DNA of 64,000 nt. It comes from Bartonella massiliensis (GTDB lineage: Bacteria > Pseudomonadota > Alphaproteobacteria > Rhizobiales > Rhizobiaceae). Location of the stretch: positions 1-64,000 of the forward strand of contig NZ_CABFVS010000013.1 in the NCBI RefSeq assembly GCF_902150025.1. Reading direction: 5' to 3'. Position numbers and translations under genes: made by a program. Positions 6,971 to 59,041 of the stretch are shown one piece after another. Numbering within the stretch: the first letter of the stretch is position 1; every line of letters starts with the position of its first letter. The notes beneath the pieces are model-generated. The model was given only the letters and a program-made list of their open reading frames with translations. It was not told where the DNA came from and searched no databases.

Positions 6971-7642
6971 CTAAAGTATTTCTGCAGCACCTTTAATAAA
7001 AGGTTGATAACGCACTTGAAACAGCTCTAAACACTCAAATCGACTACCAATTTTTGTATAGCGCGTCACCGTTTGTACCCCTTCATCTGGTCCTATCGCC
7101 TGAATAAGAATTCCATTTTCAGCTAAAAGTTCTAAAAATTCCTTGGGTTCATCAGAACGTGATGGCCAAATAAGAATGCGATCAAATGCTCCCAAACCTG
7201 TCACATTATGACTTCCATCAATCTGCCGTATAACAATATTTTCAATGCCCAAAGTTTGAAATTTTTGACGTGCTAAATCAACAAGTGTTTTATAACGATC
7301 AATCGTTGTTACACGGTCACTCAAACATGCCATAAGAGCAGTGCAAAAACCAGATCCTGTACCAATTTCCAAAACACGATGCTTTTTTTTCAATGATAGT
7401 GCCGAAAGAATTAACAGTTGTTCTTCCAAACGTTCCATATATTCACCACACTCAAGGGGAATAATTTTATTATCATAAGCACTATTAAACCACGGAGCAG
7501 AAACAAATTGTTGACGTGGAACTTTCTCTAACACCGAAAAAAAACGCACGTCATCAATGCCTTTGCTACGCATTTTTAGTACAAGAGCAGCCAGCTCCTC
7601 ACGAAACTGTAAAATACCCTTTTGCCCCATAGTATCATTCAC
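6971..7642 (-). CDS. pcm: Protein-L-isoaspartate O-methyltransferase
   Basis: Repairs isoaspartyl residues in aged proteins using S-adenosylmethionine. The 223-residue product has the PCMT Rossmann fold: VLEIGTGSGFCTALMA as SAM-binding motif I near residue 90, preceded by the ...F....VPRQQFVS start block, then IVIRQIDGSHN and FDRILIWPS. The predicted start is GTG at 7642, overlapping the stop of the small surE-like remnant; an ATG four codons later is possible. In relatives the order is surE-pcm-nlpD, so the overlap is probably what is left of the surE-pcm junction. Confidence 0.88.
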   Translation of the reverse strand: MNDTMGQKGILQFREELAALVLKMRSKGIDDVRFFSVLEKVPRQQFVSAPWFNSAYDNKIIPLECGEYMERLEEQLLILSALSLKKKHRVLEIGTGSGFCTALMACLSDRVTTIDRYKTLVDLARQKFQTLGIENIVIRQIDGSHNVTGLGAFDRILIWPSRSDEPKEFLELLAENGILIQAIGPDEGVQTVTRYTKIGSRFECLELFQVRYQPFIKGAAEIL

Positions 7643-23450: not shown

Positions 23451-24480
23451 AAAAATAACCATATCGTTAAAAACTATAGCGCACCCCTATAATGCCCTGA
23501 AGGGATTGTTTTGTTTTACGCCCTTTAACATAATGGGCCTCACCATATAATTTCAACTTCTCACTCACAAAACTGCTTAAACCTATGCCTAATTTACTCG
23601 CATTGCCTGACAAGTCCGTGCTAAATGGATGTTGTTCATTAATCAATGTCTGATTATCGTCTTTATTCTCACGCAACCATGCTGCTGTAATATATGCCTG
23701 TGATGAAGAAGCCATACGAGAGCCAAATTCATACCCTAAAGATAAGCCAACCTCACTGCGTAATGAAGTGAAGGGACGCATGTTACCGATCATGTCATTC
23801 GATAACTTGATTTCTTTGCCCTCAACTTGCAACCATGTAAATTGTCCATAAGGCTGCAACCAACTGTTCTTGGATGTCTGAATCCGATAACCGGCTTCAA
23901 AGGAGGCTCCTACTGCCCATTGCGTATAGGTTCCTTCAATCCCTAAACCATTCGTTGAAACCGCCTTTAGAGTATTCTGATAATGATTATATTTTAAAAC
24001 ACTATCAAGATACCATCCACTATAGTCCAAATAAGTGACATAAGCGCCAATACCATAACTATTAATACCGCTGGTTCCCCCCCGTGCATGCACAATGCGT
24101 GCGTGGTCATAACTGCCAAAACCACCTATATAAAACGCTCTATTTGCCCATTCGCTTAAGCCATTGATTCCTAAAACGATACCGGTCTGATCGAGCTTAA
24201 AGTCTATATGCTCTGTTGCAATACTCTCTTTCGTTTTAATTGCATAGGTCCATAAAGCCGTATTCTTTTTACTTTGATCTAAAATTCCTCTTCCCGCACG
24301 CACAATTTGCATTTCATTGTGAAACACCATTGCTGGAGCGACAGACATGGACAATACCGCATCTGTAGAAGGCGTGGTTAAAAGTTGAGAAACTGAAAGC
24401 ATCTCACTTAATTGTGGAGAAGCTTGCTCTTTATGCGCTGGTCGCAAAATCATTTGATCGGCTAAAGATTGGGAAGATGT
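23451..24480. repeat. Barrel-encoding repeat, copy B (near-identical to 17053-18085)
   Basis: The partner of copy A. Identity starts just 3' of the stop codon (AAAAAATAACCATATCG in both) and runs through the barrel into the linker near the SQSLADQMILRPAHKEQ segment. Protein differences in the barrel are few, for example Ala for Thr in AVG(T/A)SFEAG and Ser for Gly in SGNA(G/S)KLG. Confidence 0.85.
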
Positions 24481-27400
24481 TGAAACAATTGAAGAAACAG
24501 AAGCTGGAGATTGTTGACTCAAGTTGCGGGAGTTTTCTCTTCGATGTGGTAACTTAATCGCATGCTCTTGTGTCTTTGTAAGCGTTGAAACAGGAGAAAC
24601 CGATTGATTTTGACTTAAGTGTCGTGCAGATCTTCTTCTACTGCATGGCAGACCATTGAGAAATGAAAAGTTATCAATAAAGACTGCAGATAAATACCAA
24701 ACTTTTTCATCCCCATCCTCACCAACTCTTTGTTTTAAAGCATACGTGTAAGTTCCACCATCAGCAATTTGAATTTTTGCACCAGAAAAACTTTGTAAAG
24801 TAAAAGATGCACCGCCACTTTGATCCACAATTAAATCAAGTTCTATTGAAGTAGGATCAACAATTTCAATATCAGAATCAGCCACACGTATTGTGTGAGA
24901 ACCACCACCATTATTGATAAAAAGATAATCCCCCTTTCCTTCTGCAAGGCTAACATTAAAATCGAAATGGAGTCTCCCCGAAAGGTCATCCACATAAAGC
25001 CGAGAATAATATAAATCATCCTCAGTAGAGGTAAAAGTGACTTGTCCTACACCACTTAACTTCTGAATCTGTGTTCTTTTGTCGTCAAACTCACTCGCAA
25101 CAAAGTATAATTGAGCATTTTCCCCCTCTAAATGGACATCTTCTACTGTGGTATGATGTTGATCATCTCCAGCATCAAGATGGAGTTGCCCTAAATCATG
25201 AATTTTTATTTCTCCTTCTAACAGCGCACCAGCAGAAACCCATGAATGCGCATCACCTTCAATCATTAGATTTTTTACAATGCTACCAGCATGAACTTCT
25301 TGAATACCACCAGCACGTAAAATTACTGTATCCGCCGTTCCCTCTGCGAATACTCGCTGAACATCACCTGCAAAAACCTCAGTATTCACGGCTAAACCAC
25401 CGGCTTTTTCTGCAAAGTTATCGTCATCAGGAAACCATTTAGCAAGAGTTTGTATTCCCCCACTCATCACTTTTGTTCCCACTACCATTCCATCATCATA
25501 GACATTCTGCTGTCCCGGTGTATCCCCCTGACTATAAAGTGTCGTATCATAAGCACTGCTTCCAACAATCCCCCCGTTTTCGTAACTATCTCCCCAAACA
25601 AGCTGATTACCACCGTAGATTTTAGCTTGCAATACTGTCCCTCCTCCTTCTACCTTTTGTTGCCCGCCCTCGTAAATAATCGTAGGCTCTGAGATTCCCT
25701 GTTCCCCTATAATCTCTGAATCACCATGCTCAATTGTCGTATTCTTACTGAAACCACCCGCTTCAACATAAAGTGTTCCAGATCCCTCAACCGTCGCGTT
25801 AATAGACTGTTTAAGAGCGCCTCCATCACCAGAAATATAAATGGTGCGATCATCACCAAGCAAAAAGCTTTGTAAAATGCCTTCTCCCTCACGAATACTA
25901 AAATTAATGACATCAGAATATGGATAAAAATTAATACCAACATCTTTTGATGGTGTGATATTTTCTTCCTTTTCCGGAGTTTCCTCTATAGGTAATTCCA
26001 TATGAGATGAAGAATCTAAAGAAGTAGAAGTTATTTCTAACGGTACCAAAGACCAAATTTTTCTACCGTTATGATCTTTTATCTTTAGAGCATATATGTA
26101 GGCTCCACCATCAACTGTACTCGTCTTTTCACCAGAAAAATCTGTCAGCGTAAAATAGGCATTTCCGCTTTGTTCATGAATGAAATCAAGCTCTAAAACT
26201 AAGTTCTAGTTTTGTAAAGAAGAATTGGTCATTTCAACACCAGAATCAATCACGCTTATGGTGTGATGTCCTTCCCCCTTTTTTATAAGGAGATAATCAC
26301 CGCGCTGCTCCTCAAAATTGGTATTCAGTCTAAAATGTAAATTCCCTGAAAGATTACCGATCTCAAGTTTAGAATAATGTGGATTAAATACGGTAGAAGT
26401 AAAAATAACACGACCATTCCCGCTTAAATTCTCAATCAAAGAACTTTCGCCATCCATTGTAGAAGCAATAGCGTACAATTTTGTATCTTTGCCATTTAAA
26501 ATAATTTTTTCGACTTCAGTACGAGATTGATCAGCACCAGCATAAAGATAAATTCGTCCAGAATCATGAATCATGGTGCTTCCTTCTAATGTTGCACCAG
26601 AATGTAACCATGACTGTGCTTGATCCTTAATGGTTAAATCTTTTACATACCCTCCTAAATCTATTTTCTGGAAAGCAGTCCCTTGTAAAAGAACCCCACG
26701 AGCTATTCCCCCGCTAAAACGTGTTGCTCTCCACCAGAAAAGACCTCTGTATTAAATGCAAAACTTCTATAATCGTCTATATCCCCTTCTACATAAAGAT
26801 TTTGTACCCCTCCTTCCATAATTTTTGTACGAAAAGCCTCTCCATCATCGTACACATTCTGATATCCTCGCACGCCATTTTCACCAGAAATGACGGTGTC
26901 ATAGGCACTGCTCTTCACCTTCTCACCTTTGATATCAGACTTTCCTGAAACAAACTGCTCACCACCGAAAATTTGTGTATCTTCCGCTTTGCCCTCATTT
27001 TCAATTCTTTGTTGTCCCCCTTTATGAACAATACTATCTTGTGAAATTCCTTGTGTTTTAATAAGCTCAATACCGCCATTTTCAATTTTGGTATACAAGC
27101 TAAAACCACCGCTATAAACGAAGAGCTTTCCACCATTTTTAACTGTATTACGAATTGAAGTTTCTCCATTACTATCAACTTTCTCACCGCTACTGTTAAC
27201 GCTAGAATCTGCAATCGTAACAATCATTCCCTTTTCGATTGTGTGTTCTGCGAGATCACTCGATAATGAAGCCATAGCAGATGGTTGCAAATTAAAGTCA
27301 GAAAATAAGGAGGGACTTGTCTTATCAGCGGCATAATTCGCATCTAAATACCAAATTTTACCGGTATCCTTATTATTTCTGTGTTTCAAACGATACCTAT

Positions 27401-28901
27401 AGGTTCCTGCATCAATCGTTTCGATTTTTTCACCAAAAGTATTTGTCAGAGTAAAATGAGCCTTTCCACTATGATCAGAAATTAATTTTAGCTTTTTGTG
27501 AAAAGAATTTGTCATTTCACGCCCTGAATCCATCACACTGATTGTATGATATCCAGAACTCCTTTCTTTAATGACAAGATAATCACTAAGGTGCTTGGCA
27601 AAGTTGACATTAAAATCAAAATGTAAAAAACCTGAAAGATCATCAAGATTAAGCTGAGAGTAATGCTTATTAGCCCCAGAAGACGTAAAAATAACGCGAC
27701 CATTTCCTTTTAAATTCTGGATATTAACGTGAGTTTTTTTGCCGTTATCTTCAGAAGCAATAATGTATAGTTTGGTATCTTTTCCATTTAAATTAAGATT
27801 TTCTACTTTCGTAACCGCTTCACCATTCCCAGAATAAAGATAAAGGCTGCCAAAATCATGAACATTTGTATCCTTATCTGCTATTGCACCAGCCAACATC
27901 CATGATTGTGCTTGATGATTAATTGTCAAAGTGTCCACATATCCGGTATCATATATTTTCTGAGTAGCTCTATCATATAAAGTAACTTCACCCGCATTCC
28001 CTCCTGCAAATATATTCTGCATCCCATTTTTAAAAAGTTCCGTACTCAGTGCAAAAGCCCCCTCATTGAGAGTAAAATCTTCCTCTTCTATATCGGCTGT
28101 ATCAGCATCTTCTGAGAAACCATTATTAAAATTCTTTTGACTACCAAGATTCTGGACACCACCTTTCATAACCTTTGTGTCAACAGCCATCCCTCCACTA
28201 TAGACATTTTGTATTCCTAGCATTCCATCTGCAGCATGAATCTCTGTATTGTAAGCACTACTCGCCTTATCTTTAATCAACAAACCAGATTTAAGGATCC
28301 CCTGACCAAAAATAGTCTGTTCGCCACCATAGATTTTAGTCCCTTCAGCATTTGCACCACTCTCAATAATTTGTTTACCCCTTTTTTTTACAATGGCATA
28401 TTCTGAAGTGCTCAAGTTTTTGACAAACTCAATCCCATTATGTGTAATTGTCGTATCCCTACTAACACTCGCTTCAATAATATAGAGTTTTCCACCCTTT
28501 CGAACCGTATTATTGATAGAATAGCCTGCATTTTCATAGCTAAAGCTATTTATTTCAGAATCGTCAGAATCACGGTTGGTAATATAAATAGAAGCACCAT
28601 CGCTTATTATTGAATTTGTTAAGACTTCAAAAAACAAGTTCTCTGATTCCTTCCTTTCCTCCTCTGAAGACTTATTTCCTTCTATTGCCTTTTCATGCAC
28701 TATCATTTTTGCCCCCTCTTTTTTTTCTTTTAATCCCCTTACTTTTGATAACAATTTTCTTATCTTTTCTGAATGTTCATTGATACCTACCGGTGTTAAT
28801 AGCTTTTCGTTTGGTGTTGCTACTCCATATGCATTCGGAATCTTGACAAAAAAACTACTGGTCATTAACGCACAAAAACTTAATTTCAATTTTCGTTGCA
28901 T
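23467..28901 (-). pseudogene. Giant three-module autotransporter, split by a frameshift and an amber stop
   Basis: The start region (ATG 28901) encodes a signal peptide and the barrel lies at the 3' end, but three frames are needed to connect them. Frame one (28901-26703) has the signal peptide (MQRKLKLSFCALMTSS) and one and a half passenger modules, ending HVLAGE then TAG. Adding one G to the G5 run at 26708-26712 restores GGIARGV... and reading continues with no stop to 26574 and on to an amber codon at 26206-26208. Beyond it the same frame runs through 26049 to the barrel end at 23467. Repaired length would be about 1810 residues: three tandem AIDA/pertactin modules, a Ser-rich linker and a barrel. 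As sequenced no product has both signal peptide and barrel, so it is a pseudogene or phase-off allele unless bases are wrong. Confidence 0.8.
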
Positions 28902-37727: not shown

Positions 37728-38740
37728 TGACTGCTCTTGTTGTTAGTGGTGGTGATCCTGCCGGAATTGGTCCTGAAATAGCTCTAAAAGCGTGGAATTT
37801 GCGCGTTACTCGTCAAGTTCCACCTTTTGTCCTTATTGCTGATCCAGATGTTGTTCGTTCACGTGCTTGTTTTTTACAGATTGATGTTGAGGTAGAATCT
37901 GTTTTAGTCACCAATTCTGTCAAAAATTTTCAAAACGCTCTTCCTATTATACCGTTAAAAAACAAACAAAGTGATCAAGTAGGTATATCTTCATCAGACA
38001 ATGCTGCTGGAATCATTGAAGCTATTGAGCGCGCTGTTCAACTGATTCAAAGTGGACATGCTTCTGCATTGGTTACTTGTCCTATTGCCAAAAAAAATCT
38101 TTATGATATCGGATTTGAATTCCCAGGTCATACAGAATTTTTAGCTGATTTGGCTCATAAAGCTTTTCATAGAAGTTATCATCCCGTTATGATGTTGGCA
38201 GGGCCTCGATTAAAGACAGTTCCAATGACTGTTCATATTCCAATCAAAGATGTTCCTTCACAGCTGACCCATCATTTAATCACTCAAACAGCCTTCATTA
38301 CTGAATATGACTTAAAAACACGCTTTAAAATAACATCGCCCCGCTTAGCTGTTGCTGGTCTTAATCCTCATGCTGGAGAAGGGGGAACAATGGGAAGAGA
38401 AGAGTTTGAAGTTATCATGCCTGCTATTGAATATCTTAAAAAGAAAGGACTCAATATTACAGGCCCGCTTCCTGCCGATACAATGTTCCACGAATGTGCA
38501 AGAAAGACATATGATGTTGCCCTTTGCATGTATCATGATCAAGCCCTTATCCCTGTTAAAACATTAGACTTTGATACGACCGTTAATGTCACGTTAGGTC
38601 TCCCTTTTATTCGTACGTCTCCAGATCACGGAACTGCTTTTGACATTGCTGATAAAGGCATAGCTTCTCCGGAAAGTTTTATTGCTGCTCTTAAACTTGC
38701 AAATCAACTTGCAAAAAATAGTTTGATACCATGCCAATAG
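37724..38740 (+). CDS. pdxA: 4-hydroxythreonine-4-phosphate dehydrogenase
   Basis: NAD-dependent step of pyridoxal phosphate synthesis. 338 residues of normal length, with [17 protein letters not shown] at the start, TCPIAKKNL near 125, [11 protein letters not shown] near 135, [16 protein letters not shown] near 212, PADTMF, and [41 protein letters not shown], which holds the metal-binding histidines. It overlaps surA upstream and rsmA downstream (ten bases), so translation is coupled. Confidence 0.96.
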
Positions 38741-39561
38741 ATAATCTCCCCCCTCTGCGTGAGGTCATTGATACATATGGCTTACAAGCTCATAAATCTT
38801 TGGGACAAAATTTTCTTCTTGATCTGAATTTAACCTCTAAAATTGCTCATCAAGCAGGAAATATAGAAGGAAAACCCGTTATTGAAGTTGGACCAGGTCC
38901 TGGAGGGCTCACGCGCGCCTTGCTCGCAAAGGGGGCTATTGTAACAGCAATAGAACGCGATGAGCGCTGCATACCGGCTCTCTTAGAAATAGAAAAACAC
39001 TATCCGAACAAATTAAAACTTATTTGTCATGATGCGCTAAAACAAGACTTCTCAAAACTCTTTGTAACAAGCCCTGAAAAGCCACGCATTATTGCCAATC
39101 TTCCTTATAATATTGGAACACAACTCTTATTAAATTGGCTGTTAGTGGAACCATGGCCTCCTTTTTATGAATCAATGACATTGATGTTTCAACGAGAGGT
39201 TGCCCAACGGATTACGGCCAAACCTCAATCTTCTCATTATGGACGTCTTAGCGTCTTAACTGGCTGGCGTACCACGGCTAAAATTGCTTTTGATGTGCCT
39301 CCTCAAGCTTTCATACCGGCACCTAAAGTAACATCTTCCGTTGTTCATATTATCCCACGAACACGACCTCTTGTCTGTTCTGCACAAAAATTAAGCCTCG
39401 TCACAAAAACCGCTTTTGGACAAAGACGAAAAATGCTTCGTCAAAACCTCAAAACACTTGGAGGTACAGTACTGTTAGAAAAGGCTGGCATTGATGGAAC
39501 GCGCCGTGCTGAAACACTTTCGATTTCTGAATTTGTGACTTTAGCAAATCTGATAACCTAA
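38731..39561 (+). CDS. rsmA: 16S rRNA dimethyladenosine transferase (KsgA)
   Basis: Dimethylates A1518 and A1519 of 16S rRNA late in 30S assembly. 276 residues: [14 protein letters not shown] start, SAM motif [16 protein letters not shown] near residue 52, [11 protein letters not shown] (catalytic NLPY) near 125, [10 protein letters not shown], and a C-terminal [13 protein letters not shown] segment. Last gene of the lptF-rsmA operon and convergent with gmk; only about 30 bases separate them and I see no obvious hairpin. Confidence 0.96.
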
Positions 39562-39592: not shown

Positions 39593-40260
39593 TTAATCAA
39601 TCTTTTCAGCAATAAGTCTATCAACAAAAGAGCCAAGAAAAGCACAGCGCTCGCGTTTTGCTGTTTCAGCTAAATAAATTGATTTAATAAGTGATAAAGA
39701 CTGATCTAAGTCTTCATTAATTACAATATAATCATAAGAATGCCAATGTTTTAGCTCTGTTCGTGCGTTCTCCAGTCGTAAATTGATGATATCTTGACTA
39801 TCTTCTGCTCGACGATGTAAACGCGAAACAAGCTCTTTCATTGATGGTGGAAGAATAAAAACAGATACGGTATCTCCTGGCATTTTTTTTGCATCTGCTC
39901 AGTGCCTTGATAATCAATATCAAACAACATATCACGACCAGCACTCAATGCATTTTCAACGCTTTCGCGTAAAGTTCCGTAATAATTCCCATGGACCTCT
40001 GCCCATTCAATAAATTCATCTCTATCACGTTTATGTTCAAACTCTTCCTTTGAAATAAAGTGATAGTGGAGACCTTCTACTTCACTAGAACGCTTTTTCC
40101 TTGTGGTCGCACTGACAGAAAGCTCTAATTGTCCATCTTTTAGGAGTAAGCGAGAAATTGTTGATTTACCAGTACCTGAAGGTGAAGAGAGAATAAATAA
40201 AAAACCGCGGCGCTGATTTATTTTTATCGTATTCAACGCACTTTTAAAGTCTGTCATCAT
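39593..40260 (-). pseudogene. gmk: Guanylate kinase, split by a one-base loss in a poly-A tract
   Basis: Phosphorylates GMP to GDP and is normally essential. The upstream part (40260 down to about 39891) holds the P-loop [11 protein letters not shown], the GMP-binding block [13 protein letters not shown] and [16 protein letters not shown]. At the A8 tract in the coding strand (39883-39890 as T8) the frame shifts and ends after 140 codons. The remaining 96 codons ([18 protein letters not shown] ... to 39593) complete a normal Gmk if one A is added, giving QMQKKMPGD across the join. As sequenced the lid and C-terminal helix are lost. A sequencing error or transcriptional slippage on the A-run is more plausible than true loss. 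Confidence 0.85.
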
Positions 40261-40409
40261 ATTATTCTACTTTGTTCATAAATTTTTTAAAAATTTGAAT
40301 GATACATTATCTCAAGCTTTTTCCTAATCAATTGTTTTTTAGCGGTTCTCCATGTTATTCTGCACCTTTTATTGAGATCATTTATCAAAAAATATATTAC
40401 TTTCTTTCT

Positions 40410-40545
40410 TAAAGATTTTTTATCCATACGCTTATTCTACTCGTAACATATAAGAAAATGATTTTTTATCATTCTTATCAAAAGTTTAAGGTGAAAAATC
40501 TTACTCTATTTTTGGCTCTCATTTACGATATATAGTATCATTATA
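40410..40545. repeat. Weak dispersed repeat copy (candidate copy 5)
   Basis: Sequence between gmk and mltG that aligns loosely with the 1326-1492 repeat: TTTTTATCCATACGCTTATTC, then AAGAAAATGATTTT, and an ATCATTATAAATCAATT tail, with many differences. yicC usually lies between gmk and mltG in relatives and is absent. No gene is visible in 40261-40547. Confidence 0.35.
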
Positions 40546-40547
40546 AA

Positions 40548-41597
40548 TCAATTTTTTGCCTTTAATTCTCGCCATTTGCGAACATTCACATTATGTTCCT
40601 CTAAAGTTCGAGAAAAAACATGTCCTCCTGAACCATCTGCAACAAAATAAAGCGCATCACTGCTTGGTGGATGTGCCACCGCTTTCAAAGAATCGCGCCC
40701 TGGATTTGCAATAGCTGTTGGGGGCAAACCATTAATTTTATAAGTATTATAAGGTGTTTCCTTCTCAAGATCTGAACGATAAATTGCACGATCCGATGGC
40801 TTTCCTTTTCCTCCAAAGAGACCATAAATTACCGTTGGATCCGATTGAAGACGCATATGCTTTGTAAGGCGGTTATAAAATACCGCAGCAACCATTGGTC
40901 TTTCTGCTGCAACTCCTGTTTCTTTCTCAACAATTGAGGCCAATATAACAAATTCATCAATTGATTTAATGGGTAAATCAGGTGAACGTGTAGCCCATAT
41001 TGTATGAATTAAATTTTTCTGTCCTTCGAGCAATCTGTTGATAATTTCTTCGCGCGTCGTCCCTCGAATAAAACGAACAGTATCCGTCATCAAATAGCCT
41101 TCTGGAGGCAAAATTTTTGGAAGATCCCCAATCAAAATTTCATTTTCCGCTAAGCGATCAAAAACTTGCTGAACCGTTAAACCTTCTGGTACTGTAAATG
41201 TATATTCAATGGATTTTCCTTTCACAAGAATATCCATAATGTCCTGCATTGATGCATGAGCTGGAATTAAATATTCACCAGCCTTCAGATGAGTTGTGTT
41301 TTGGTAATAACCAACCCCATAAACAAAAATATCTGATGACCGAATGAAACCACGCTTTTCTAGCAATGACGCAATCTCACGAATTCCTGTTCCTGGATGA
41401 ATAAGAACAACTTGTCCTTCCTCAATTTTTCCCTTTTCCTCAAAAATACTTTTTCCAATATAAAGAGGAATACTTATGCCAAAAAGAATAATCACAATTA
41501 GCATAAGAAAAAAATGACCGATAATAACCAACGGATTACGGACGATCGATGATTTCTTTCGTTTTTTATGTGTTAACATGTCATATATCTGCTTCAA
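40548..41597 (-). CDS. mltG: Endolytic murein transglycosylase MltG
   Basis: Cleaves nascent peptidoglycan strands in the inner membrane and sets glycan length. 349 residues: short cytoplasmic N-terminus, one membrane helix at about 25-45, a LysM-like domain (VLIHPGTGIREIASLLEKRGFI), then the YceG fold with VPEGLTVQQVFDRLAENE, the catalytic Glu in LASIVEKETG, and VFYNRLTKHMRLQSDPTVIYG. The closing segment is YFVADGSGGHVFSRTLEEHN. It follows fabF, the usual alphaproteobacterial neighbour. Confidence 0.94.
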   Translation of the reverse strand: MKQIYDMLTHKKRKKSSIVRNPLVIIGHFFLMLIVIILFGISIPLYIGKSIFEEKGKIEEGQVVLIHPGTGIREIASLLEKRGFIRSSDIFVYGVGYYQNTTHLKAGEYLIPAHASMQDIMDILVKGKSIEYTFTVPEGLTVQQVFDRLAENEILIGDLPKILPPEGYLMTDTVRFIRGTTREEIINRLLEGQKNLIHTIWATRSPDLPIKSIDEFVILASIVEKETGVAAERPMVAAVFYNRLTKHMRLQSDPTVIYGLFGGKGKPSDRAIYRSDLEKETPYNTYKINGLPPTAIANPGRDSLKAVAHPPSSDALYFVADGSGGHVFSRTLEEHNVNVRKWRELKAKN

Positions 41598-50832: not shown

Positions 50833-52210
50833 ATGGCACGCACCCGTGTTCAATTTATCTGTCAAAGTTGTGGAACGGTCCATTCTCGTTGGGCGGGGAA
50901 ATGTAGCGCCTGTGGAGAATGGAATTCCCTTGTTGAAGAAAATATAAATAGTGGCATAGGAAGCGGTCCTAAACAGAATATTCGTAAAGGACGCATCGTC
51001 GCCCTTACATCTCTTTCTGGAGACATCCAAGATGCTCCACGTATTCATTCTGGTATTGCTGAACTTGATCGCGTTACCGGTGGAGGCTTTGTTCGTGGAT
51101 CGGCACTCCTTGTTGGTGGTGATCCAGGTATTGGAAAATCAACATTGCTCACACAAACAGCTGCTGCTTTATCACACAAAGGACATAACGTCATCTATGT
51201 CTCAGGTGAAGAAGCTATTGCGCAAATTTGTCTGCGCGCGCAAAGGCTTGGAGCGCATAATACAGAGGTTAAACTTGCTGCTGAAACCAATGTTGAAAAT
51301 ATTCTTGCAACCTTAAGCGAGCATAAAAACCTTGATATGGTGATTATCGATTCGATTCAAACCTTATGGTCAGATACAGCAGATTCAGCCCCCGGCACTG
51401 TCACACAAGTGCGTATTGGTGCTCAAGCTATGATACGCTTTGCTAAAAAAACAGGAGCTGCTGTTGTTCTTGTTGGTCATGTGACAAAAGATGGGCAAAT
51501 CGCCGGTCCTCGGGTCGTGGAACATATGGTTGATGGCGTTCTTTATTTTGAGGGTGAAGGAGGCCATCATTACCGCATTCTTAGAACTGTAAAAAATCGC
51601 TTCGGACCAACAAATGAAATTGGTGTCTTTGAAATGTCTGATAAAGGCTTACGCGAAGTCATCAATCCATCTGAATTATTTTTAGGAGAACGTAATGAAA
51701 AAGCACCAGGCGCCGCTGTTTTTGCCGGTATGGAAGGAACACGCCCGATATTAGTAGAAATTCAAGCGCTTGTTGCTCCTTCTTCCCTTGGAACACCAAG
51801 ACGTGCAGTTGTCGGATGGGATGGAAATCGTCTTTCTATGATTCTTGCTGTTTTAGAAGCCCATTGCGGCATTCGTTTTGGGCAGCATGATGTCTATCTG
51901 AACGTGGCAGGTGGATATCGCATATCAGAACCTGCCGCTGATTTAGCTGTAGCCGCAGCTTTGGTTTCTTCTCTTGCCAATATCCCTTTGCCAACGGATT
52001 ATGTATATTTTGGGGAAGTCAGTCTTTCAGGAGCTACCCAGCGCTGTTGCACATTCAACACAGCGCATCAATGAAGCAAAAAAACTCGGTTTTCAGGGGG
52101 CATTTCATCCCACAACAACAACTGAAATCATGAAGTCGCTTAATTTTCAACAAAAAACTTTCTCCGACCTTCCTGAACTCGTTGCCACTCTCACCGCAAG
52201 TAAAAAATGA
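50833..52210 (+). pseudogene. radA: DNA repair protein RadA, frameshifted near its C-terminus
   Basis: A recombination mediator with a branch-migration activity. The first 413 codons contain the zinc finger (CQSCGTVHSRWAGKCSACGEWNS), Walker A GGDPGIGKSTLL, the RadA KNRFGPTNEIGVFEM signature and the Lon-like domain, ending LSGATQRCCTFNTAHQ. Beyond about 52035 the conserved continuation VAHSTQRINEAKKLGFQGAFHP is in another frame and runs to 52210. Full length would be about 459 residues. The shift falls just after SGA, where SGA(V/I)RPVA is expected, so the local sequence itself is altered and is not a homopolymer. The product loses about 50 residues of the Lon-like domain. Confidence 0.85.
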
Positions 52211-57158: not shown

Positions 57159-59041
57159 TTATTTTTTACGATTAACAATACCCGTCTCATCTTCTTCACG
57201 CATTTTACGTAATTTTTCTTCAGCTTGCGATGCTTCAAGCTGCTTATTCCACATTGAAGCATATAAACCTTTCTTGCGTAAAAGCTCTGTATGCGTCCCA
57301 TTTTCAATAATACGACCACTTTTAAGAACCAAAATTTCATCAGCATTGATAACCGTAGAAAGACGATGCGCAATAATCAATGTTGTTCGCCCACGGCTTA
57401 CAATATCTAATGCTTGTTGAATTTCCTGTTCTGTTGTCGTATCAAGAGCCGCTGTTGCTTCATCTAGAATAAGAAGGGGGGGAGCTTTAAAAGCGTTCGT
57501 GCAATAGCTACACGTTGTTTTTCCCCCCCTGATAATTTTAGACCACGCTCTCCTACCATAGACTGAAAACCTTCCGGTAACATCTCAATAAATTTTGATA
57601 TTTGCGCCATTTCAGCAGCTTTGCGCATCTCTTCATCTGTCGCACTTGGACGTCCGTAGCGAATATTATAGGCAATTGTATCATTAAATAATACCGTATC
57701 TTGTGGCACCATACCGATTGCTTCTCGCAAACTCTTTTGTGTTACATTACGAATATCCTGCCCGTCAATTGTGATAGAGCCCGCATCAACATCATAAAAC
57801 CGAAAAAGCAATCGAGAAATAGTTGATTTACCAGCACCCGATGGACCGACAATAGCGACTGTTTTTCCTCCTGAAACTTCAAAATTAATATCTCTGAGAA
57901 TCTGACGCGCCGAATCATAAGAAAACTTTACTTGATGAAAACGAATAGTCCCATCACTTATCTCTAACGGTTTAGCATTCGATTTATCAACGATTTCCTT
58001 CTGAACATCTAAAAGATCAAACATCGCTTCAATATCGGTTAAACCTTGTCGAACATCACGATAAATTGAACCAATAAAATTCAGTGGAATAGAAAGTTGC
58101 ATTAAAAGGGCATTAATAAAAACAAAATCTCCTAAAGTTTGTGTCTTATAAAAAACTTCATAAGCTGACATCAGCATCATGGTTGTCATGCCAAGACCAA
58201 AGATAAGAGCCTGACCAAAATTAAGCCAACTTAACGATGTCCAAATCTTTGTTGCAGCTTTTTCATAACCGGCCATAGCGGCATCAAAACGATCGGCTTC
58301 TAGCGTTTCATTGCCAAAATATTTGACCGTTTCAAAATTCAAAAGAGAATCAACAGCGTGCGTATTTGCTTCAGTATCTGCTGTATTCATTTGTTGCCGA
58401 ATACGAATACGCCAATCACTCGCCTTAATGGTAAACAAGGTATATAACAAAACTGTTACAACAACGATGAGAAGATAATGCCCCCCATAATTGATGTAAA
58501 ATACAAAGGCCGTTAATATAAATTCTAGAACTGTCGGTACAGTACTGAGAATTGAAAATCTTACGATCGCTTCAATTCCTTTTGTTCCGCGTTCAATCAC
58601 GCGAGAAAGCCCACCAGTTCGGCGTTCTAAATGAAATCGTAAAGATAACTCATGAATATGGACAAAAGTTTTATAAGCGAGTTGACGAACAGCGTATTGA
58701 CTGACAGTGGCAAAAAGAGAATCGCGTAATTGATTTAAGCCTGCCTGTATAATACGTGCAGCATTGTACGCCAAAACAAGCATGATGGGAATAATTAAAC
58801 TGGATGGAAACCATTCAGGAAGCTGAAAGCTTGTATCAAGTACATTCGTAGCATATTTAAAAAAATACGGTACAGATATAAGAACGAGCTTGGCCAAAAT
58901 AAGATAAAATATTGCCCATAGCACACGTATTTTTAGATCACGCCGACCTACCGGCCACATATAAGGCCATAAATTGTAAAGTGTGTGCAGAGTTCCCTCT
59001 GTATCAGATGATACAGTTTTTGTCATTTCATTGCGTTTCAT
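57159..59041 (-). pseudogene. Atm1-type ABC exporter, frameshifted before Walker B
   Basis: A half-size ABC exporter of the Atm1/HMT1 family (heavy metals or glutathione-linked sulfur compounds). The long frame (59041-57464) has six-helix TM domain features, Walker [19 protein letters not shown], and the LSGGEKQRVAIARTLLKL signature, then ends at a TAG. In the shifted frame the conserved continuation LILDEATAALDTTT, then TLIIAHRLSTV and the C-terminus run to 57159. The change falls at a run of seven C on the coding strand (G7 at 57476-57482); one added base restores PPLLILDEA. Walker B and the H-loop are lost from the main product, so it would be inactive as sequenced. Confidence 0.85.

Follow-up and report, generated by a model that had tools for sequence, protein, structure and literature searches.

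A one-base frame break at an A8 run splits the guanylate kinase gene in an assembly of Bartonella massiliensis

The analysed window, the first 64,000 nucleotides of contig 13 in the Bartonella massiliensis assembly, contains the guanylate kinase gene gmk as two pieces on the minus strand, which together occupy positions 39593..40260. The N-terminal frame (39838..40260, minus strand) encodes 140 amino acids, the final ~14 of which are out-of-frame sequence. The C-terminal frame (39593..39883, minus strand) encodes 96 amino acids, and its first ATG takes up the last A of a run of eight A on the coding strand (A8; 39883..39890, T8 on the plus strand). The frame breaks at this run, as the preliminary description had stated, and comparison with the Gmk proteins of relatives placed the change of frame at about residue 125 of the N-terminal frame. 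Both pieces exceeded the cut-off for the profile PF00625, the N-terminal one over profile positions 5-119 and the C-terminal one over 114-178; membership in the family is thus carried by two adjacent pieces and not by one uninterrupted frame. A profile search of the draft assembly (90 contigs, 2.27 Mb, completeness estimate 100%) returned just these two matches to PF00625. As they are the sole matches and their profile spans adjoin, they represent one split gene, and a second gmk, one of the explanations raised in the preliminary description, was not found in the 90 contigs. The gene lies between mltG (YceG family, 40548-41597) and a convergent rRNA dimethylase gene (38731-39561), and the G+C content of the window is about 37%. 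Judged by the N-terminal piece, the closest named contigs among the best 80 of 551 matches belong to rodent-type Bartonella, e.g. B. tribocorum and B. queenslandensis. Guanylate kinase is essential in well-studied bacteria. A literature search for an essentiality screen in Bartonella yielded none among the matches listed.

The state of the run was compared across 71 Bartonella genomes, one genome per species. All but one carried gmk; the 71st, a genome of 85% completeness, gave no match. The gene was in frame in 68 of the 70 gmk-bearing genomes and split in two, both with A8, namely the genome under study (G000) and G011. The site read A7G in 31 genomes (followed by ATG in 29 and by TTG in 2). 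An A9 run was present in 16 genomes and the out-of-frame A8 in 2, and 21 kept the frame with a different spelling. Among the 14 gmk genes nearest to that of G000 by dN, 11 had A7G, one had A9 and two had another spelling. The preliminary description had derived the break from the loss of one A from an A9 run. The one-base change at the A8 run stands, but A9 as the ancestral state is not established from these comparisons; since 11 of the 14 nearest genes have A7G, the loss of the G would be a shorter alternative route to A8. A sample of 150 genomes of the order, two of them Bartonella, served as a wider comparison. Among the 148 non-Bartonella genomes a strong, near-full-length gmk match was obtained in 145, only a weak match in one and none in two, and a split of this sort occurred in none of the 148. 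The contrast between the genus and the rest of the order (2/70 versus 0/145, Fisher p 0.10) is suggestive only.

The second split gmk was assessed within its own assembly. G011 is a single-contig genome, of which 280 kb were examined. Its gmk, purF (GATase and phosphoribosyltransferase domains), LptD and LptF/G genes were off frame in comparison to four or five genomes, and its genes for an M1 peptidase and a pyridine nucleotide-disulphide oxidoreductase were off frame against the single comparable genome. In each of these genes the break lies in an A or T run or next to one, and in the aligned cases (n=3) the run was one base shorter. This pattern points to consensus error as the probable cause, and the G011 assembly looks prone to errors in run length. 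Because many conserved genes are similarly hit in G011, its A8 was not counted as a second case and was set aside as an independent parallel to the G000 gene. Also rejected was a candidate break at a T8 run (about position 7253 of segment L172): the reading is open in G000, and G011 is the odd one out.

A survey of frame breaks in G000 took in the window and 120 kb from contig 2 (184 kb in all), where 95 gene places could be compared; the comparison set comprised 478 gene places in the Bartonella genomes G064, G066, G055 and G026. Candidate breaks backed by at least two references were found at 9 of the 95 places in G000 and at 12 of the 478 in the four relatives (Fisher p 0.003). Places backed by a single reference were left out of the counts; those on contig 2 of G000 include 51242 and 54922. 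Hand reading retained five of the nine G000 places (gmk, a RadA-like ATPase, an ABC exporter and, twice, an aldehyde dehydrogenase) and dropped four (autotransporter 23120, mltG start 41594, short frame 43364 and gene end 52285). In the relatives two of the twelve were kept (G066 106607 and G055 19218) and ten dropped, so that four conserved genes of G000 were read as broken, as were two places among the relatives (p 0.008 for the contrast).

The ABC exporter (ABC_membrane and ABC_tran domains; 57464-59041, minus strand, with the remainder in another frame at 57162-57584) breaks near 57491 through a one-base difference away from long runs, and has 525 amino acids in G000 versus 627 in five relatives. 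In the RadA-like ATPase (50833-52074, plus strand) one extra base and an adjacent change near 52040 leave 413 amino acids, versus 464 in G064 and 462 in G011. The aldehyde dehydrogenase gene on contig 2 (L213:9800-11228), both pieces of which match PF00171, has lost one base at each of two sites about 84 bases apart in comparison to G064 and G066. Among the four broken genes, gmk alone has a run of seven or more at its break. As the breaks in the ABC exporter and the RadA-like gene are not at long runs, they hint at scattered assembly errors.

In 479 kb of G000 the length distribution of A/T runs resembled that of the relatives, and general compression of runs was not seen; the frequency of runs of at least nine, 2.5 per 100 kb, was at the low end of the range (2.0-5.6 in five others). 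In addition, 106 A/T runs of at least seven lie in G000 genes that relatives match across 90% or more of the gene, a count that gives no independent error rate because intact genes were the selection rule. It does show that long A/T runs in this assembly are common and mostly sound. Frame breaks are thus more frequent in G000 than in the relatives, without sign of a general run-length fault, a pattern that both real young mutations and scattered assembly errors fit.

Selection was estimated separately on the two sides of the run. Comparison of the G000 gene with its 14 nearest gmk genes gave a mean dN/dS of 0.155 for the part before the run and 0.119 for the part behind it; the corresponding means within the set of 14 were 0.154 and 0.150. 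Relaxed selection of the kind expected in a decayed pseudogene was not seen in either part against these 14 genes. Because both halves are under normal purifying selection, gmk is no old pseudogene, and the suggestion of a true pseudogene in the preliminary description gains no support, with the qualification that a very young pseudogene would look identical. These values do not discriminate between a recent break, a functional but leaky allele and an error, all of which they fit. The gene is otherwise intact and under purifying selection, as is typical of genes rescued by slippage, though the same would be seen after a recent break or with an artefact.

Within the run, a putative slip site of the sequence A_AAA_AAA is present in the frame of the N-terminal part (39883..39889, minus strand, read from 39889 to 39883), and a -1 slip on this heptamer would lead into the C-terminal frame. 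The site shares an A-rich slippery heptamer in frame with -1 ribosomal frameshifting of the dnaX type; the dnaX-type site is A_AAA_AAG, whereas gmk has A_AAA_AAA and no supporting structure was found. According to the available part of one study, ribosomes slip less well on A_AAA_AAA than on A_AAA_AAG (PMC5009743). RNA structure at the gmk run was not beyond chance (z -0.11, with 91 of 200 shuffles folding at least as well), and other than the heptamer no signals of programmed frameshifting were found at gmk. With respect to transcription, the run consists of eight A, and most published slippage cases examined involve runs of 9 to 11 A or longer. In the accessible portions of two further papers, RNA polymerase of E. 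coli is described as slipping weakly and preferring T runs (PMC6260861), and frame breaks in an 8A repeat were bypassed during laboratory drift of the M.HaeIII gene (PMC3812077).

Whether real or an error, the gmk break falls within a known kind of phenomenon. Varying run length in Bartonella gmk has in fact been published, and this closest parallel was missed by the preliminary description. As far as the available part of that report goes, 38 Illumina-assembled Bartonella genomes from the Negev were surveyed; its Table 1 lists gmk as ON/OFF with run lengths of A8-9, under the species B. khokhlovae (PMC11466379). B. khokhlovae is named there as the species with a run of at least nine in at least two strains, three strains having been sequenced, so the strain with A8 is presumably the third. 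The authors propose such repeats as candidate contingency loci. In the main text gmk is named once, in the table, and viability in the OFF state is accordingly not discussed there. The Negev repeat and that of G000 agree in genus, gene, run base, run lengths and predicted frame break; the Negev survey shows both lengths among strains and proposes a contingency locus, whereas G000 is one strain. Our genus set also contains a repeat in which the frame depends on run length, as expected of such a locus: A8 is out of frame and A9 is in frame in 16 of the 70 genomes.

A second group of parallels comprises genes of Blochmannia and Buchnera with frameshifts at poly-A tracts, for which rescue by transcriptional slippage was described (Tamas 2008 and Wernegreen 2010, as cited in the parts of PMC3017870 and PMC5009743 at hand). 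Like gmk of G000, these genes have a short indel at an A run, are otherwise intact and show no accelerated evolution. The endosymbiont genomes, however, are far more AT-rich, their tracts are longer and transcript evidence exists for some, whereas gmk has A8 in a window of about 37% G+C. In tssM of Citrobacter rodentium, an A11 run gives about 20% frameshifting with measured mRNA heterogeneity (PMC4256274, from the portion accessible). It is likewise an interrupted gene yielding a full-length protein through an A run, which for gmk is proposed only; it differs in run length (A11 versus A8) and in being a secretion-system gene. Literature linking Bartonella with transcriptional slippage was not found in the literature searched, and the one match that joins Bartonella, guanylate kinase and pseudogene concerns, in the text available, Rickettsia felis.

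The explanation we tentatively prefer, at just under an even chance, is that A8 is a genuine and reversible one-base length variant that is survivable through full-length Gmk made by slippage. On this reading Bartonella gmk contains a slippery A-rich site, the length of which reportedly varies among Negev Bartonella. The break would be young and could be reversed by replication slippage, and A8 cells would manage with less full-length Gmk, produced either by slips of RNA polymerase on the run or by -1 slips of the ribosome on A_AAA_AAA. In support of a real variant, no second gmk was found, 68 of 70 Bartonella have the gene in frame, and 145 of 148 other genomes of the order gave a strong, near-full-length match. 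Normal dN/dS in both parts, the A8-9 gmk published from Illumina assemblies, the A/T runs of G000, which are not generally compressed, and the 8A precedent in the drift of M.HaeIII are also consistent with it. Moreover, as most near relatives have A7G, a real variant would need one deletion, whereas a miscount would need a substitution plus an error. Against it count the three further conserved genes broken in G000 and the low-end number of runs of at least nine, and A8 in G011 is an unreliable witness. The rescue by slippage, which the preliminary description had put forward, could occur, and there are precedents for it. Yet A8 does not reach the A11 found in tssM and is short for strong slippage, the heptamer is of the poorer type and the fold is no stronger than in shuffled sequences.

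A base-call or assembly error, with gmk in frame in the isolate and the consensus one base off at the run, is a serious contender that we place somewhat below an even chance. It is favoured by gmk being a single-copy gene, well conserved otherwise and present in almost every genome. The excess of frame breaks in G000, both before and after hand reading, and the broken ABC exporter, RadA-like and aldehyde dehydrogenase genes in the same assembly argue in the same direction, and G011, with purF, LptD, LptF/G, M1 peptidase and oxidoreductase genes likewise off frame, suggests that an artefact is possible at this very site. On the other hand, G000 lacks general run-length compression, the gmk repeat is reported as A8-9 in Illumina assemblies of other Bartonella (PMC11466379, as far as available), and the two deletions in the aldehyde dehydrogenase gene look more like real decay. 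A real variant and a consensus error are thus nearly level.

We give little credence to a further extension of the genuine-variant reading, by which the slippery site would let replication slippage lower Gmk repeatedly and reversibly, while slippage in expression would secure a low but viable GTP supply, so that the run would act as a dial of growth rate and not as an ON/OFF switch. True loss of Gmk, with gmk as a fresh pseudogene in a cell that lives without the enzyme, is very improbable. The N-terminal frame covers the profile no further than position 119 of 182, so its product should be inactive unless rescued, and genomes with no strong match do exist (three in the order, two with none and one with a weak match, and one Bartonella draft with none), some of which incompleteness may explain; yet no second copy was found, gmk is kept in nearly all genomes examined and selection is not relaxed in either part. 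An enzyme assembled from both pieces, the second made from the ATG overlapping the run, is scarcely credible: this ATG sits exactly at the break, but it is no adaptation because 68 of 70 genomes have it as an internal Met codon, the remaining two having TTG, and a ribosome site upstream was not noticed on inspection by eye. Both the loss of a dispensable gmk and a split enzyme are hence considered unlikely.

If A8 is real, a supposedly essential gene tolerates a frame break in a bacterium other than a reduced endosymbiont, and Bartonella gmk would offer a direct test of the rescue capacity of slippage in expression. If it is an error, it illustrates how single-base faults turn essential genes into false pseudogenes in draft genomes, and lists of ON/OFF runs in essential genes would call for checks at the level of reads.

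An ab initio search for pairs of frames meeting at runs gave 35 candidates in 379 kb of G000. Fifteen were laid out, and 20 pieces from 11 of them (nine pairs and two single pieces) were scanned with Pfam. Five pairs had a Pfam match on both pieces and were rejected as neighbouring genes, the families being different; in four pairs one piece had no Pfam match. This work also led to the break in the ABC exporter. Elsewhere in the window, an autotransporter adhesin (23470-28901, minus strand) is broken at about 26679-26718; it has 1836 and 1839 amino acids in two relatives. The gap between mltG and gmk (40261-40547) consists of about 290-306 AT-rich bases in G000, G066, G055 and G026 and of about 58-67 bases in G011 and G064. 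A usual neighbour at this position is yicC. As yicC had no match in the four Bartonella genomes searched (G000, G011, G064 and G055), the long AT-rich gap may be a remnant of this gene.
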